Shown here piece after piece: positions 6,083 through 38,104 of a stretch of 56,064 bases of DNA (positions are counted from its first letter, which is position 1; every line of letters begins with the position of its first letter). Source of the DNA: Syntrophomonadaceae bacterium (GTDB lineage: Bacteria; Bacillota; Syntrophomonadia; Syntrophomonadales; Syntrophomonadaceae); assembly GCA_012522955.1 (NCBI GenBank), contig JAAYJK010000130.1, positions 1-56,064 on the forward strand. Direction: 5' to 3'. A program made the position numbers and the translations under genes. The notes beneath the pieces were generated by a model that was not told the DNA's origin, did not search any database, and worked only from the letters and a program-made list of their open reading frames with translations.

Positions 6083-6337
6083 AGCCTTTCGTCTCCATTA
6101 GAGACGAAAGGCCTGGCTTCCGTGGTTCCACTCTATTTGAGCATGTTTAATTTTCTATGCTCCACTTGATTATAATAACGGCATTACCGGATATCCCTAC
6201 TTCATTTCAGCATACCTGCTCCTGGGCGCAAATTCGGACCATCTCTTACTGTAAAAAGGCTCTCAGCCGGTGACCTTTTCTCTCTGGCAGCGATTATAGC
6301 CCTACTTATCCCATTCTCAGCATTTATATATTCTATT
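6083..6337 (-). promoter_or_regulatory. T-box leader upstream of cysE-cysS
   Basis: The minus strand carries the conserved T-box sequence AGAGTGGAACCACGG (about 6119-6133). It is followed by a strong terminator hairpin (GCCTTTCGTCTC with GAGACGAAAGGC, 6083-6112) and a T-rich tail. Upstream are stem I elements AAGTA, AGAGAG and the GGTCACCGGCTGAGAGCC region. The likely specifier loop reads GAATTTGCGCC, which contains a TGC (Cys) codon; the exact register is my inference. T-box RNAs bind uncharged tRNA and antiterminate, which fits control of cysteine supply and charging. Confidence 0.88.
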
Positions 6338-19346: not shown

Positions 19347-19362
19347 AGCAAATATTGTGCCA
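19347..19362 (-). promoter_or_regulatory. Sigma-54 promoter of the CoA-transferase gene
   Basis: The minus strand reads TGGCACAATATTTGCT, matching the full -24/-12 consensus. It lies 90 bp before the start of 17880-19256. Confidence 0.9.
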
Positions 19363-28600: not shown

Positions 28601-30532
28601 TTGCATATTTATAACGATAGAGACTACTGGCAATTATTGCATCAAGATTCGTCTGAACATAGTAGTTTAAGATCAGAAATTGCAGCTTCGTGGCAGCGAA
28701 GTTATGAATACGGAATTGCTCCTGATATGCTTTCGCCCCCCATGTGTGAAGAAGGAAAATTACAGGCTCAACCTAATTTGGACTACATACTTGATATAGC
28801 CCAACCTCTTTGTCAACAAATGCTGGAGTATCTTCCCGATGACCATGCGGTACTTCTTTTTAACCATCAGGCCTGTGTAATAGCAGTGTTAGCTACAGAG
28901 CATGTAAGAGAATGCTTTGAGCAATTTGGGATGAAAGTAGGGGCTTGCCTGGCCGAAGATAAAGCTGGCACCAGTGCTGTGGCCCTAGGCATTATATTGG
29001 GTAAACCCATACAGGTAGTGGGTTATGAGCACTTTGCCCAATTTGGTATAAGCCATGGAGCCTCTTTCGCTCCTATTCGGGATAGGAGCAAGGTGGTAGG
29101 TGGAGTAGCTATTCTGGGACCCCTGGAAGTATATGATAGCAAAATATTAGGGATGGCCCAGTTGGCTTCTCATTCCATATCTTCCCGAATTGGGCAGCAG
29201 AGGTGGAGTTATCTGGTAGACAGATACATCAGTGACGGAGTTCTTGCCGTTGACGAAGATAATCGCATTTTTTATATGAGCACACAATGTCATAGGATTT
29301 TAAAAGTGCCGGAGCAAAACACCTATAAAATACCTCTTGCTGATATAATTGATCCCGAAAAAGAGGAAAACCAATATTTTTGGACCATAATCAAAGATAA
29401 TCATACAGTAATCGATGAATCCATATTACTATCAGTGGGAGACAGAAAAGAACTGATAAATTGCAATATCACCGTTTCTCCTTTTGATGCTTCAGTGAGC
29501 GAGTGGTCAGTCAAAATAATCGTAATTCAAGAGATGGAACGGATTAACCGCCTGATCCGCAATTACTCTGGCAATAGCGCTCGGGTCTCCTTTGATGATA
29601 TCGTTGGCTCCAATCCCCAATTTTTGAATACTCTCTATCATGCCAAGCGTTCAGCGGGAACTCGTTCCAACATACTCCTGCTGGGTGAAAGCGGAGTGGG
29701 TAAAGATGTTATAGCCCAGTCTATACACAATGAAAGTCCTAGAAGAAACGGACCCTTTATCGCCATAAATTGCGCCGCTTTGCCCCGGGAGTTAATTGCC
29801 AGTGAGCTGTTTGGATACGAGGAGGGTGCTTTCACCGGGGCCAGAAGAGGTGGTAATTTAGGAAAGTTCGAGCTAGCTCATCAGGGCACCATTTTCCTGG
29901 ATGAGATTGGAGACATGCCACTGGACTCACAGGCTATGTTGCTGCGAGTAATTGAAGAAAAAACCATCGTTCGTTTGGGGGGCAACAAGTCTATTCCAGT
30001 TAATGTGCGAATTATAGCAGCTACCAACAAAGACCTGATAGCAGAAGTAGAGAATAATTCTTTTCGTCGTGATCTTTTTTATCGGCTAGGGGTCATAAAA
30101 ATAATGATTCCTCCTTTGCGGGAAAGAAACGAGGACATTGCTGTTCTTAGCCAGCATTTTCTAGCCATGCTCTGCCGTCGTTTTAACCTACCCAAAAAAA
30201 CTCTATCTCCCGAAGTATTATATGCTTTCCAAAACTACAACTGGCCGGGTAATATAAGGGAACTGCAGAATATACTGGAAAGTGCTGTGCAATGGTCGGT
30301 TTCCCCCATTATTTCCAAAAACCAGATTGAGCAGTTGCTGCCGGCCTTAAAACCAAAGAATCCAGTAAATATTCAAAATATTCCTGATCCTGAAGAACCT
30401 TCAGAATTAAAGCAAATTAAGACTTGTCTGGCCAAATATGACAATAATAAATCAAAAACCGCTAAAGCTCTGGGCATCTCCCGTAAAACTCTGTACAAAC
30501 GCCTGGATAAATACGGATTATCTTCTTCCTAA
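28601..30532 (+). CDS. AcoR-like sigma-54-dependent transcriptional activator
   Basis: This 643-aa activator starts with a TTG codon at 28601, seven bases after AAAGGAGG. The N-terminal SWQRSYEYG motif and the following GAF-like domain (about residues 60-190) are typical of AcoR-type activators. A PAS-like segment follows (about 205-300), then the AAA+ domain with Walker A GESGVGKD, the sigma-54 loop GAFTGA, Walker B GTIFLDEIGD, and a Fis-type HTH (KSKTAKALGISRKTLYKRL). The ligand is unknown. Its position in the middle of the sigma-54-promoted genes suggests it controls some of them. Confidence 0.93.
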   Translation: MHIYNDRDYWQLLHQDSSEHSSLRSEIAASWQRSYEYGIAPDMLSPPMCEEGKLQAQPNLDYILDIAQPLCQQMLEYLPDDHAVLLFNHQACVIAVLATEHVRECFEQFGMKVGACLAEDKAGTSAVALGIILGKPIQVVGYEHFAQFGISHGASFAPIRDRSKVVGGVAILGPLEVYDSKILGMAQLASHSISSRIGQQRWSYLVDRYISDGVLAVDEDNRIFYMSTQCHRILKVPEQNTYKIPLADIIDPEKEENQYFWTIIKDNHTVIDESILLSVGDRKELINCNITVSPFDASVSEWSVKIIVIQEMERINRLIRNYSGNSARVSFDDIVGSNPQFLNTLYHAKRSAGTRSNILLLGESGVGKDVIAQSIHNESPRRNGPFIAINCAALPRELIASELFGYEEGAFTGARRGGNLGKFELAHQGTIFLDEIGDMPLDSQAMLLRVIEEKTIVRLGGNKSIPVNVRIIAATNKDLIAEVENNSFRRDLFYRLGVIKIMIPPLRERNEDIAVLSQHFLAMLCRRFNLPKKTLSPEVLYAFQNYNWPGNIRELQNILESAVQWSVSPIISKNQIEQLLPALKPKNPVNIQNIPDPEEPSELKQIKTCLAKYDNNKSKTAKALGISRKTLYKRLDKYGLSSS

Positions 30533-33492: not shown

Positions 33493-34632
33493 TTACGAAC
33501 CGAGCAGTATTCCGGCTATAATCATCTTTTGCATATCGGTAACCCCTTCCACAATGGGGCCAGTAATAGCATCACGATAACTCCTGGCCACTTTGTAGTC
33601 TTCCATCAAACCATAAGATCCATGAACGTCCACTGCCAGCCGGGAGGCTATCCAAGCCGCTTCGGTTACAAAAGTCTTGGTTAAGGCTGCCGTCTTAATA
33701 AACTCAATTTGATCCTGTATATCATTGGCCATGCATCCCAGTCGGTAGGTAAGCCAGCGAGCCGCTTCCAGGCTAATAGCCAAATCAGCTAATTTAACCT
33801 GAATGGTTGGAAACTTGGCGATTACCCCATCGCGATGAGTTTTCTCTTTAGCATACTTCAGGCTCTCTTCCAGAGCTGAAGCCATACCTCCCAAAGCACT
33901 AGCTGCCATTCCGATTTTGCCAAAACCTATCCCGTATTGCAGGATAGGATATCCATGTCCCAGCTGGCCCAGCAGATTCTCGGCCGGAACCTGTACCTCC
34001 TTCAGATAAACATCTGATAGAGCCTGGCCATGCAATCCTACCTTATTCCACGGCTCTGATACCGAATAACCTGCACAAAACTTATCCACGATAAAAGCAG
34101 TAGGTTTGCCGCTCTCCTGGTCTCGAGCAAAAACTACCATAGGACCTTTAAATGTAGCATTGGATATAAACCGCTTGGTTCCATTCAGGATAAAATGATC
34201 TCCTTGTTTAACAGCCGTAGTAGTAATTTGTTTAGGATCCGACCCAGTACCTGGCTCGGTGAATGCAAAGGATGCCAACCATTCTCCCTTACAGCAAGGA
34301 CCAAGGTATTTTTCTTTTTGGAATTCAGTGCCAAACTTGGTAATCGCTCCTAAACCCAGAGTGTTAACTGAAATAATGGAAGCAATCGGCTTGCACACCT
34401 TGCTCAACTGTTCCAACACTAGAACATATCCATCATAACCAGCTCCTGCTCCGCCATACTTCTCTTCATAGGGGAGGGCGAAAAAATCATAGTCTGCCAG
34501 CTTGCTAATGATATCTTCCGGTATATGGTTTTCTCGATCAATCCTTTCAGCTATGGGCTCCAGATATTTTTCTGCGAACTCCCGGGCGGTACTCTGAATC
34601 AATATTTGCTCTTTACTAAGCTTAAAATCCAT
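33493..34632 (-). CDS. Acyl-CoA dehydrogenase (short-chain/butyryl type)
   Basis: This 379-aa protein is standard length for the family. FAFTEPGTGSDPKQI (about residue 121) is the flavin and substrate contact motif. The C-terminal GPIVEGVTDMQKMIIAG contains the Glu at the position of the catalytic base. It oxidises acyl-CoA to trans-enoyl-CoA, with electrons going to an electron-transfer flavoprotein. It has a sigma-54 promoter 220 bp upstream together with a 20-bp dyad. Confidence 0.93.
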   Translation of the reverse strand: MDFKLSKEQILIQSTAREFAEKYLEPIAERIDRENHIPEDIISKLADYDFFALPYEEKYGGAGAGYDGYVLVLEQLSKVCKPIASIISVNTLGLGAITKFGTEFQKEKYLGPCCKGEWLASFAFTEPGTGSDPKQITTTAVKQGDHFILNGTKRFISNATFKGPMVVFARDQESGKPTAFIVDKFCAGYSVSEPWNKVGLHGQALSDVYLKEVQVPAENLLGQLGHGYPILQYGIGFGKIGMAASALGGMASALEESLKYAKEKTHRDGVIAKFPTIQVKLADLAISLEAARWLTYRLGCMANDIQDQIEFIKTAALTKTFVTEAAWIASRLAVDVHGSYGLMEDYKVARSYRDAITGPIVEGVTDMQKMIIAGILLGS

Positions 34633-34852
34633 GGCTATATCTCCTTTGCTATTATATTTCCCTTGATGATTGATGGTTGCATTAACTATAAACTAGATCT
34701 GTATCTTTGTATAATATTTCTGCAAATCTGCCCCGTACCTGAGTCTAGAGTTAATTATCAACTGTTCTGGTTCCGAATGGTAACCTGCTGCCAGGTTTAG
34801 GCAATTTTCCGATGGGATTTTATTGATACCAAACCGGACTTAGTAAAACATG

Positions 34853-34868
34853 TGCAAATACTATGCCA
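34853..34868 (-). promoter_or_regulatory. Sigma-54 promoter of the acyl-CoA dehydrogenase
   Basis: The minus strand reads TGGCATAGTATTTGCA, a full -24/-12 match. Confidence 0.9.
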
Positions 34869-34976
34869 GAACAGCAAGATTCGCTAGCCGCTGCTATGTA
34901 TAAGTATCATCCTAAATCGATTCTAAGTGAAATCCCTTTATTTCTAGCCTAACAAACTGTAATTTTATCCAGACAG

Positions 34977-34996
34977 GTGTATGCTTATCCGTACAT
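34977..34996. promoter_or_regulatory. 20-bp dyad, candidate shared enhancer
   Basis: GTGTATGCTTATCCGTACAT matches the core of the dyad at 19471-19490 at 16 of 20 positions (one read on the minus strand). It is 108 bp from the minus-strand promoter at 34853-34868 and 109 bp from the plus-strand promoter at 35106-35121, so one site could serve both. Confidence 0.65.
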
Positions 34997-35105
34997 CACT
35001 ATGTCCTTATCGACCCTTTAGTTGCCTGGTCAAGCACGCTAGTTGATCCTATACAAGCCCCATACTTAGACAATTCATCCACACCCACTCTTGACTGCTA
35101 TCTTT

Positions 35106-35121
35106 TGGCACATTATTTGCT
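35106..35121 (+). promoter_or_regulatory. Sigma-54 promoter pointing into the tandem array
   Basis: The plus strand reads TGGCACATTATTTGCT, a full -24/-12 match. No ORF lies downstream on this strand for over 1 kb; the transcript would enter the hairpin at 35198 and the 47-bp array. This suggests a non-coding transcript. Confidence 0.8.
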
Positions 35122-35197
35122 TTATAGTATATTACCAACAATTAATCAGTTTTAATCTTTTTTTCCAGATTACTCCTACTCCAGCCTTATAAAAGGG

Positions 35198-35228
35198 CGG
35201 CGGCTGTTTCCTAAGGAAACAGCCGCCG
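35198..35228 (-). terminator. Very strong hairpin
   Basis: CGGCGGCTGTTTCC and GGAAACAGCCGCCG form a perfect 14-bp stem with a TAA loop. On the minus strand it is followed by CCCTTTTAT, on the plus strand by no T tract. It therefore suits a terminator for a minus-strand transcript coming from the array side. Confidence 0.7.
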
Positions 35229-35312
35229 GGTCCGACCTGATTTGTGCTACATAGGTCATAATTATAATGATACGAGAATACTGCATGTGCTGTTGCTTAT
35301 AGACTTTGTATA

Positions 35313-35711
35313 GTGCTAAAGTTTTGCTGTAAATATTGCTAAGTCCTGTGCTTGCTATAGTGCTAAAGTTTTGCTGTAAATATTGCTAAGTCCTGTGCTT
35401 GCTACAGTGCTAAAGTTTTGCTGTAAGTATTGCTAAGTCCTGTGCTTGCTACAATGCTAAAGTTTTGCTGTAAATATTGCTAAGTCCTGTGCTTGGTACA
35501 GTGCTAAAGTTTTGCTGTAGATATTGCTAAGTCCTGTGCTTGGTACAGTGCTAAAGTTCTGCTGTAGATATTGCTAAGTCCTGTGCTTGCTACAGTGCTA
35601 AAGTTCTGCTGTAGATATTGCTAAGTCGTGTGCTTGCTACAGTGCTAAAGTTTTGCTGTAAGTATTGCTAAGTCCTGTGCTTGGTACAGTGCTAAAGTTT
35701 TGCTGTAAATA
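35313..35711. repeat. Tandem array, 47-bp period, about 8.5 copies
   Basis: The block GTGCTAAAG begins at 35313, 35360, 35407, 35454, 35501, 35548, 35595, 35642 and 35689, always 47 bp apart. Units differ by a few substitutions and no indels. Each contains AAAGTTTTGCTGTA, ATATTGCTAAGTC and CTGTGCTTG. There is no spacer variation, so it is not a CRISPR. The 47-bp period and TAA/TAG in every reading frame rule out a repeated protein. Confidence 0.97.
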
Positions 35712-35770
35712 CTACTTCTTTTGCTTCTTGAATCCACCTTGGGTGGTCAGGTCATATTAACTTAGTAATG

Positions 35771-35882
35771 TGTCTCAAGCAGTCCAGCTTAATACTACTA
35801 AGGGGTACAGTATGGGTAATCAGATTTGAGGGGGTAAATCTGATTACTGGGTATCTGTTAATCAACTGTACTGCTTGAGACA
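35771..35882. repeat. Nested palindromes
   Basis: An outer perfect 13-bp inverted repeat, TGTCTCAAGCAGT (35771-35783) and ACTGCTTGAGACA (35870-35882), encloses an inner perfect 12-bp repeat, GTAATCAGATTT (35816-35827) and AAATCTGATTAC (35836-35847). A further 7-bp pair (GTACAGT/ACTGTAC) can compete with the outer stem. It would fold into a long structured RNA or a cruciform. Confidence 0.85.
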
Positions 35883-36051
35883 GAGTGGTTTATTTAATGC
35901 TGTAGCTAATTAGTATAATTATTTCTACAGCTTTAAACCATAATAGTTTGCAATCCTAAATTTATATCGGTTTTGCCTTTTACCTCTGTGCCTGTAGCTC
36001 TCCTGAGAAAGCCTCATCACTACATTCTTGCTTAGCTAAAGTACTGTGGGG

Positions 36052-36102
36052 TGTTACCCCAATTGTTACCCCAATTGTTACCTTTTGTCACCTAGTGTTA
36101 CT
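36052..36102. promoter_or_regulatory. Helically phased TGTTACC direct repeats
   Basis: Five related heptamers start at 36052, 36064, 36076, 36086 and 36096: three perfect TGTTACC, then TGTCACC and TGTTACT. Their spacings are 12, 12, 10 and 10 bp, so all face about the same side of the helix. This is typical of a cooperative protein-binding site. It lies 3' of the small gene at 36140-36352. Confidence 0.6.
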
Positions 36103-36139
36103 GGCCTGATGTGGCCATTTTCCAACCTATCTTTAAACA

Positions 36140-36352
36140 TTAAATAGCTTCATTGTGTTTGGGAATGAATTCACAGAATTCCAAGCATTCACCGGGTAAC
36201 CAACCGCTGATTTGTCCATCTAGCAACAATTTATATGAGTAGACTCTTTCGTTACCGCTATTATGCTGTTCATCTCTTATGGCAACGATAATACCCATTT
36301 TTTCCGAATATTTACCCTTGGGGCTTTTTATTATGGCCAATCTTTTAAGCAT
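36140..36352 (-). CDS. Small hypothetical protein under a sigma-54 promoter
   Basis: I do not recognise this protein of about 70 aa. It starts MLKRLAIIKSPKGKYSEKMG and ends with an acidic, Cys-containing tail (LPGECLEFCEFIPKHNEAI); the mix of short beta-type stretches could be an SH3-like fold. The ATG at 36352 is chosen because the predicted sigma-54 start is near 36383, which would put the upstream ATG at 36385 before the transcript. The ribosome site is weak (CAGGTGAAG). It is the only ORF between the gltX end and the tandem array. Confidence 0.6.
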   Translation of the reverse strand: MLKRLAIIKSPKGKYSEKMGIIVAIRDEQHNSGNERVYSYKLLLDGQISGWLPGECLEFCEFIPKHNEAI

Positions 36353-36655
36353 GTATACTTCACCTGACTCATTTGTATTATACATATACTAATAGCAATT
36401 TCTATGCCAACCTTTCCTATAAAACATCTTTTCTCGGTTTTTATAAATTCCCTTATCTTCCATCATTCTATCCCTTGCTATTTAATATACCTGTTTTTTT
36501 CTTATGCTATGCTTTCTCCAGGCTATGCAGGATCACTTGAACCATTAGAGCTAAGGATAAATAGTAGGCGCAAAAAAAAACTGCTGCCACTCAAAAAATG
36601 AGCACACCAGTTTTATTAACTGTAAATGGTCAAGTCCGCCAGCAAGAGCTGAGTG
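36353..36655. other. Interval between the small gene and gltX
   Basis: This 303-bp interval has the sigma-54 promoter at 36394-36409 and otherwise AT-rich DNA with no gene. A short frame at 36404-36601 has no ribosome site. Confidence 0.6.
36394..36409 (-). promoter_or_regulatory. Sigma-54 promoter of the small gene
   Basis: The minus strand reads TGGCATAGAAATTGCT, a full -24/-12 match identical over 16 bases to the one at 31607-31622. Confidence 0.9.
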
Positions 36656-38104
36656 CTAATTATTCAACCGTTGCAGGGACTGCTTAATTCGTTTAATAGT
36701 CTCTTCCTGTCCCCAAATACATATAAGACTTGGGAGATCAGGTCCATGCACCTTCCCACTTACCGCGCTGCGTAAAGGCATAAAAACGTTTTTGGGTTTA
36801 ACCCCGGTTTGCTTGATTATGGCTTTCAGATATTGTTTAATATCCTCGGGGCCCTCACTATCGGGAAAATCTTCAACCAGAGTCTGGAGTATCTTTACCG
36901 TTCCTTCCTCCTTAAGTACTTGAAGAGCTTCCTCTTCATATTCCAGTTGATCAAATACCACCCCTACCTCCCGGCTTATATCACTTAAAGATACTAAATG
37001 ATCCCTTACGGTTTGGATTAGCAATTGGTATTTGTCCTCATCCATTGCCTTTATTGCTTCACTATAAGGGGAACGGTCCAGGAATGGCCTCACCTTTCGA
37101 CCCAGCTCATTAATATCCAATTTCTTTATGTATTGCTGATTAATCCAGTTTAGTTTGTCCATATCGAAGACCGCCGGACTTTTAGATACTCGGTCCAGGC
37201 TAAAGGCACGGGCAATCTCGGTGGGAGATAGCAGTTGTTCCTCCCCTTCCGGTGACCATCCCATTAAGGCCAGAAAATTAAACATGGCCTCGGGTAAATA
37301 TCCCATTTCTCTATATTGAATAAGGGAGGTAGCCCCATGTCGCTTGCTCATCTTCTGACGGTCACTGCCCAATATCAAGGAAATATGTGCAAAGGTCGGT
37401 GTTTTAAAATTTAAGGCATCGTAAATCATAAGTTGTCGCGGGGTATTGGATAGGTGTTCTTCCGCTCTTATTACATGGGTAATGCCCATCAATACATCAT
37501 CAATAACCACAGCGAAATTATAGGTAGGCAATCCATCTGATTTTATAATAATAAAATCTCCTATAATACTGCTGTCAAAGCTAACCCGGCCTCTAACTAT
37601 ATCATCCACCAGATATATCTTATTGGTGGGAACTTCAAAACGGATGGTAGGTTTAACTCCCTGTTCGATTTTTTCCGCCTTTTGCTCAGGGCTTAGATGC
37701 CTGCATCTACCCAAATAACGAGGAGTATCCCCCCGGGTTATCAATTCCTGTCGCTCTTGTTCCAATTCTTCTTCAGTACAAAAGCAATAATAGGCCTGAC
37801 CCGAATCCAATAAATGCTGAGCGTATTCCTGGTAGATACTGACCCTTTCCGTTTGACGATAGGGCCCCTGGGATCCTCCCACTTCCATTCCTTCGTTCCA
37901 CTTTATACCTAACCAGAGTAGAGATTCGATAATCTCCTGTTCATATTCAGGTTTGGAGCGGTCCAGATCAGTGTCTTCAATACGCAAGACTAAATCTCCC
38001 TGTACATTTACTGCGTATAAATAATTGAACAAGGCTGAGCGAGCTCCCCCAATATGCAACGGTCCTGTAGGACTAGGGGCGAACCTGACTTTAATTTTAC
38101 TCAT
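36656..38104 (-). CDS. gltX: Glutamyl-tRNA synthetase
   Basis: This 482-aa class I synthetase has the HIGH motif in [20 protein letters not shown] near residue 10 and KMSKR in [15 protein letters not shown] near 250. The length is normal. It charges tRNA-Glu and, in Firmicutes without GlnRS, also tRNA-Gln for transamidation. It is the first housekeeping gene to the right of the metabolic island. Whether it discriminates between the two tRNAs cannot be told. Confidence 0.96.

Follow-up and report, generated by a model that had tools for sequence, protein, structure and literature searches.

A conserved folded RNA downstream of a small gene with a predicted sigma-54 promoter in a genus of Syntrophomonadaceae

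In a 56,064-nucleotide contig of a Syntrophomonadaceae bacterium (the window, i.e., the whole stretch of DNA analysed), we found a predicted sigma-54-controlled unit on the minus strand that combines a gene for a 70-aa protein with a conserved folded RNA. The conservation and pairing of this RNA, its strand bias, the selection on the ORF, and the conservation of the promoter are seen by comparing the sequences of five species of the genus. We tentatively propose, with a confidence somewhat short of even, that the unit is a sigma-54-controlled mRNA with a riboregulator in its 3' part, which would probably act via C-rich loops. The initial annotation, which described two convergent promoters around a tandem array and nested palindromes, found the true locus and correctly suspected an activator-controlled RNA. 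What counts at this locus is the conserved palindromic RNA together with the small gene, rather than the array or the opposing promoters.

Bacteria that oxidise fatty acids in syntrophy exist close to thermodynamic limits, and the regulation of their metabolism is poorly understood (PMC4324140). The literature searched contained no report of a small RNA from Syntrophomonas. The RNA appears to be new relative to Rfam, and the small protein appears to be without a known family. A conserved RNA and a small protein in the predicted sigma-54 regulon of fatty-acid genes would represent a concrete and testable regulatory candidate.

Sigma-54 sites and the small gene

The window corresponds to contig 92 in a draft assembly of 137 contigs and 2.53 Mb, to which, among named genomes, Syntrophomonas and Syntrophomonadaceae MAGs are most closely related. 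Beta-oxidation genes and sigma-54 promoters are abundant in the window. This genome is designated G000 and its congeners G001-G004, with G004 as the nearest relative of G000; together they make up the five species of the genus. Sigma-54 sites were far above chance, with 27 genome-wide matches to the pattern YTGGCAYN5TTGCW at fixed spacing and 0 matches to the reversed pattern used as control (2.53 Mb). Nine of the 27 lie in the 56-kb window, including those at 34853 (minus), 35105 (plus), and 36394 (minus); the latter two had been called in the initial annotation, and both match the consensus with its fixed spacing. The genes behind such sites in this genome encode CoA-transferases, enoyl-CoA hydratases, thiolases, and acyl-CoA dehydrogenases, and sigma-54 is predicted to control fatty-acid CoA-ester genes here. 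This 56-kb contig alone holds about one third of the genome's perfect sites, most of them preceding genes for CoA-transferases, hydratases, thiolases, and dehydrogenases. An activator is encoded at 28601-30532. The features of the locus are listed below.

34869-34853, minus strand: predicted sigma-54 promoter (CTGGCATAGTATTTGCA) of the divergent acyl-CoA dehydrogenase gene (33493-34632)
34978-34995, no strand: putative enhancer (UAS) palindrome TGTATGCTTATCCGTACA, conserved in G001 and G003
35105-35121, plus strand: predicted sigma-54 promoter (TTGGCACATTATTTGCT), orphan, of a former decarboxylase operon
35198-35228, minus strand: predicted intrinsic terminator hairpin of the minus-strand transcript, 14 pairs with tail CCCTTTTATA
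35312-35711, no strand: tandem array of 47 bp x 8.5 (Tandem Repeats Finder, 95% matches), in the trailer between RNA and terminator
35771-35895, minus strand: conserved structured RNA core with a 13-18-bp outer stem, inner hairpin loop ACCCCCUC, and second C-rich stretch UACCCCUUAGU
35895-35940, minus strand: RNA stem 1 (GCUGUAG...CUACAGC), 5' of the core, with three pairs changed on both sides
36352-36140, minus strand: small protein gene, 70 aa (MLKRLAIIKSP...), with homologs in 5/5 species
36410-36394, minus strand: predicted sigma-54 promoter (-24/-12; TTGGCATAGAAATTGCT) of the small gene/RNA transcript

A perfect-form -24/-12 element precedes the small gene in all five species, and also precedes a second copy in G002 (L069). 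The gene proposed behind the 36394 promoter is an open ORF, as the initial annotation had it, with a start that differs from the ATG at 36385. Because promoter spacing places transcription initiation near 36383 on the minus strand, the ATG, which lies just upstream, is probably unused; the start common to the homologs is the MLK codon at 36352, which sets the gene bounds at 36352-36140. The dN/dS of 0.07-0.19, with synonymous sites near saturation between species, indicates that the small ORF is a real gene under purifying selection. An upstream activator site common to the small-gene promoters was looked for, and none was found.

A protein search with the small protein gave matches in G001-G004 and weak matches in one other genus, as well as two in G003, and no match was found in Pfam, NCBIfam, PHROGs, or PDB sequences. 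Its AF2 model (pLDDT 70) weakly suggests an SH3/Tudor-like barrel, with a best VIA Z of 6.9 and many unrelated barrels tied; the lack of a structural family among these fold matches was not taken as evidence. The order gltX, small gene, RNA is identical in G000, G001, G003, and G004. In G002 the small gene/RNA unit is placed between PAS-sigma-54 activator genes, and each of the two RNA copies of that species (loci L093 and L094) immediately precedes such an activator gene in the same orientation. The spacer between ORF and RNA (36052-36082) carries a 12-bp repeat, TGTTACCCCAAT x2.6, which has a diverged form in G004 and is replaced by a hairpin in the other species.

Structure and conservation of the folded RNA

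The whole folded RNA extends over about 170 nt (35940-35771, minus strand). Its core contains the nested palindromes noted initially, which were present as described, with outer arms at 35771-35794/35859-35882 and inner arms at 35816-35827/35836-35847. The minus strand folds far more stably than its shuffles, with a z of -7.6 for the core (112 nt), which becomes -8.9 when the upstream stem is included.

Comparison with relatives restricts the RNA to this genus. A blastn search of 35150-36650 against 60 related genomes matched G001-G004 and nothing else, and a covariance model (R1) built from six copies matched all five species and two paralogs, with the RNA found in 0 of 58 other genomes of the order searched. 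Promoter, ORF, and RNA thus occur together in 5/5 species. Between orthologs, the RNA core shows a p-distance of 0.05-0.16, and the flanks mostly 0.4-0.65 (less in the closest pairs). None of the five orthologs differs in the loop ACCCCCUC of the inner hairpin or in the 3' arm of that hairpin, and the C-rich stretch UACCCCUUAG is near-invariant, so that one conserved C-rich stretch lies in a hairpin loop and one in an open multiloop. Within the transcript the RNA is, by these comparisons, more strongly kept than the ORF. A search of Rfam over 34630-36660 gave no match at the gathering threshold (best E 4.5, a chance match to mir-122), and a known RNA family was rejected.

Among the seven RNA copies, 91% of the stem cells pair, and six pairs carry changes on both sides. 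The covariation of 0.169 exceeded that of shuffles (0.125), being above all 500 shuffles and all slid controls; sequence relatedness can inflate the comparison with shuffles, so the result is supportive rather than proof, and most stem pairs are invariant, hence the modest value. The strand test gave the cleaner evidence. The minus strands of the five orthologs contain 14 G-U cells against 1 A.C cell (21 against 5 with the paralogs), and as these G-U cells would be mismatches in a plus-strand RNA, the minus strand is indicated as the RNA strand.

Additional copies occur in two species. The second G002 copy (L069, C38) has its own perfect sigma-54 site; its small ORF is frameshifted, and UUUUUU (TTTTTT in DNA) follows the outer stem, which makes a terminator in the same direction. 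A decayed extra copy in G003 (C23; L014 2243-2362) lies between fatty-acid genes, with no ORF or promoter detectable. That the RNA stays where the ORF decays suggests that it matters on its own.

Proposed action of the RNA

In the mechanism that we propose, sigma-54 and an activator would switch on one minus-strand transcript from about 36383, which would encode the 70-aa, putatively SH3-like protein and then carry the folded RNA in its 3' part. The nearest promoter upstream of the RNA is that of the small ORF. In G000 the transcript would pass the array and end at the hairpin terminator at 35228-35198. Acting either as the whole mRNA or as a 3' fragment processed from it, the RNA could pair through its C-rich stretches, in the hairpin loop and the open multiloop, with G-rich ribosome-binding sites, so that sigma-54 activation would be coupled to post-transcriptional control. 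Transcription, processing, and trans action through the C-rich loops are inferred steps of this proposal.

This kind of action has a precedent in IsrR of staphylococci, whose exposed C-rich regions act on Shine-Dalgarno sequences (PMC9410917). In Firmicute sRNAs of the IsrR/FsrA type, too, stem-loops combine a strongly conserved primary sequence and little covariation with C-rich stretches that lie exposed (PMC9410917), and the RNA described here exposes conserved C-rich stretches of this kind in the ACCCCCUC loop and the UACCCCUUAG stretch. Unlike those Fur-driven RNAs, it is predicted to be sigma-54-driven, has a conserved small ORF 5' on its transcript, and shows no sequence relation to them. 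Qrr and CrcZ are sRNAs made from activator-dependent -24/-12 promoters. For GlmY, a reference given in PMC4211561 concerns a sigma-54/sigma-70 promoter. In the sigma-54-dependent sRNAs GlmY/GlmZ, Qrr, and CrcZ, as here, the RNA lies behind a predicted activator-dependent -24/-12 promoter, but they are separate RNA genes in Proteobacteria, whereas the present promoter serves an ORF first, and Rfam gave no sequence or structure match to any of them.

Target prediction covered the translation starts of the window and of the fetched loci. The sigma-54-driven genes were not better paired with the C-rich loops (loop 1 mean duplex -8.7 against -9.5 kcal/mol for other genes), and among the starts covered the idea that the loops are aimed at these genes found no support, with no enrichment seen and no target set emerging.

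The folded RNA could instead be a cis element of the small-protein mRNA, serving as a 3' stabiliser, in control of translation or termination, or as a binding site of the small protein, rather than acting in trans. Wherever the ORF is intact, the RNA follows on its 3' side and shares its strand, the outer stem and UUUUUU of the second G002 copy are themselves a terminator, and the predicted SH3/Tudor-like fold includes NusG/KOW nucleic-acid binders. However, the structural resemblance is poor (Z < 8), the inner hairpin and its loop show a far stricter sequence conservation than stabilisation would demand, and the RNA is retained despite a frameshifted (G002 C38) or undetectable (G003 C23) ORF. 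We regard a purely cis-acting element as less likely than not in itself, and consider a cis role, or a partnership with the small, putatively SH3-like protein, nearly as likely overall as the trans riboregulator. A role as cis attenuator of the downstream gene was rejected because the neighbour varies, being an activator gene in G002 and a convergent operon in G001 and G003.

The trans riboregulator could be extended to a dual-function operon, in which a small RNA-binding-like protein and its partner riboregulator would jointly control the translation of fatty-acid-oxidation genes in syntrophic growth, with a relic promoter as antisense off-switch; this extension is speculative, and we give it little credence.

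The trailer, the tandem array, and the plus-strand promoter

No U tract follows the outer RNA stem in the five main loci, so termination there would require a separate site. The 14-bp hairpin of the initial annotation lies where it was described (35198-35228), and it scores as an intrinsic terminator, with its T tract, on the minus strand only. The terminator scanner gave a right-strand terminator in G000 only; in G003 and G001 there were hairpins read by eye. No convincing plus-strand terminator was found before the array.

Tandem Repeats Finder confirmed the 47-bp array of 8.5 copies at 35312-35711. The array occurs in G000 and G004 and is absent in G001-G003, which keep gene and RNA, so that a survey of relatives, as suggested initially, recovered the small gene in 5/5 species and found the array missing from 3/5. 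The view that the array is a strain-specific minisatellite absent from relatives, named in the initial annotation as evidence against its reading, was half borne out. The G004 unit has 48 bp, and 32 of 48 aligned columns are identical to the 47-bp unit of G000; units are homogenised within each species. The G004 array ends at the same place beside the RNA, and the G004 contig ends inside the array, leaving the left flank outside it. The simplest reading is a lineage-specific minisatellite in the putative trailer, a spacer that expanded with little or no selective effect. Bacterial minisatellites (VNTR arrays) likewise have homogenised, intergenic, lineage-restricted units such as these of 47/48 bp, but the present array sits in the trailer of a conserved predicted transcript.

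Two special roles of the array were rejected. An unusually unstructured RNA was suggested by dinucleotide shuffling (z = +4.1), and proved to be an artefact of repetition when shuffled units were tiled (z ~0.3); with this null, neither strand showed an excess or deficit of structure. Of the RNA folding proposed as a check, the palindromes stood out (z = -7.6) and the array did not. The phased repeats of the initial annotation did not hold up either. TGCT recurs every 11-12 nt within the 47-bp unit, but 47 bp is about 4.5 helical turns and not a whole number of them, and the motif count per unit falls from 5 in G000 to 1 in G004, which argues against a helically phased, iteron-like protein-binding array. 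The 48-bp unit of G004 (L096 1-311) gives an open 16-aa repeat on the minus strand, which is probably incidental because the 47-bp unit of G000 shifts frame.

The plus-strand promoter has a separate origin. In G001 and G003, two divergent sigma-54 promoters surround a shared palindrome, with a biotin carrier/carboxyltransferase operon in one direction and the beta subunit of a Na+-translocating decarboxylase in the other. The 34853(-)/35105(+) region of the window aligns with this divergent region, including both promoters and the palindrome TGTATGcTTATCCGTACA, and its 34853(-) promoter is the counterpart of the biotin-carrier/carboxyltransferase promoter. The plus-strand leader is alignable to about the ribosome-binding site and then enters the hairpin. 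G001 and G003 share a beta-subunit ortholog with 98% identity, which is absent from G000 and G004, where only a 53-54% paralog is left. The aligned leader and the missing ortholog indicate that the 35105(+) promoter was orphaned by deletion and is a relic of the beta-subunit (gcdB/oadB) operon: promoter and enhancer align with the GcdB/OadB (TIGR01109) version of G001 and G003, which keep the gene that the genome of the window has lost. An operon deletion can thus leave an intact enhancer-promoter pair aimed at the end of a neighbouring gene.

A distance of 126-127 bp separates the palindrome at 34978-34995 from each of the two divergent sigma-54 promoters. A second copy of the form TGTAYG..N..CRTACA (TGTACGATTATTCGTACA) was observed 126 bp upstream of the CoA-transferase promoter at 19347 (minus). 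With the same distance of 126-127 bp from the -24 of three sigma-54 sites, the enhancer-like palindrome is probably the binding site of one activator. The divergent acyl-CoA dehydrogenase gene probably continues to depend on it, so the plus promoter could still fire, and as the relic -24/-12 and the enhancer are intact, antisense transcription from it is possible.

The initial annotation went further, raising the possibility of sigma-54-controlled transcription of both strands, with an antisense RNA pair or an array sponge as the product. The perfect -24/-12 of the plus promoter, its intact enhancer at 127 bp, and the lack of a convincing plus-strand terminator before the array accord with this. 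Nevertheless, the plus promoter is homologous to the decarboxylase operon promoter still present in G001 and G003, where RNA and plus-strand operon are separate and convergent, and an antisense pair as the ancestral design was rejected after this operon was found. Moreover, the array is missing in three species and is without unusual structure under the tiled null, and an intact -24/-12 is expected in a fraction of neutral relics, here with an enhancer still used by the divergent gene. We therefore consider the antisense pair or sponge improbable: the predicted activator-type minus-strand transcript with its small gene and structured RNA, ending at the hairpin and T tract, is supported, with promoter, gene, and RNA conserved genus-wide, and the single bidirectional system is not, the plus promoter being a relic.

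That the nested palindrome is a DNA element (a mobile-element end, a recombination site, or protein-binding DNA) fits its perfect inverted repeats and the extra copies in G002 and G003, but is very improbable given the G-U versus A.C bias tied to one strand, the constant location on the 3' side of an ORF with a sigma-54 promoter (in 4/5 species in conserved order behind gltX), and the lack of copies on phages, plasmids, or elsewhere in its own genome. A mobile element was rejected, with no matches in phages, plasmids, or IMG/VR (the last for the exact motif) and a single copy in its own genome. Elsewhere in the window, a T-box leader was observed at 6097-6327 on the minus strand.
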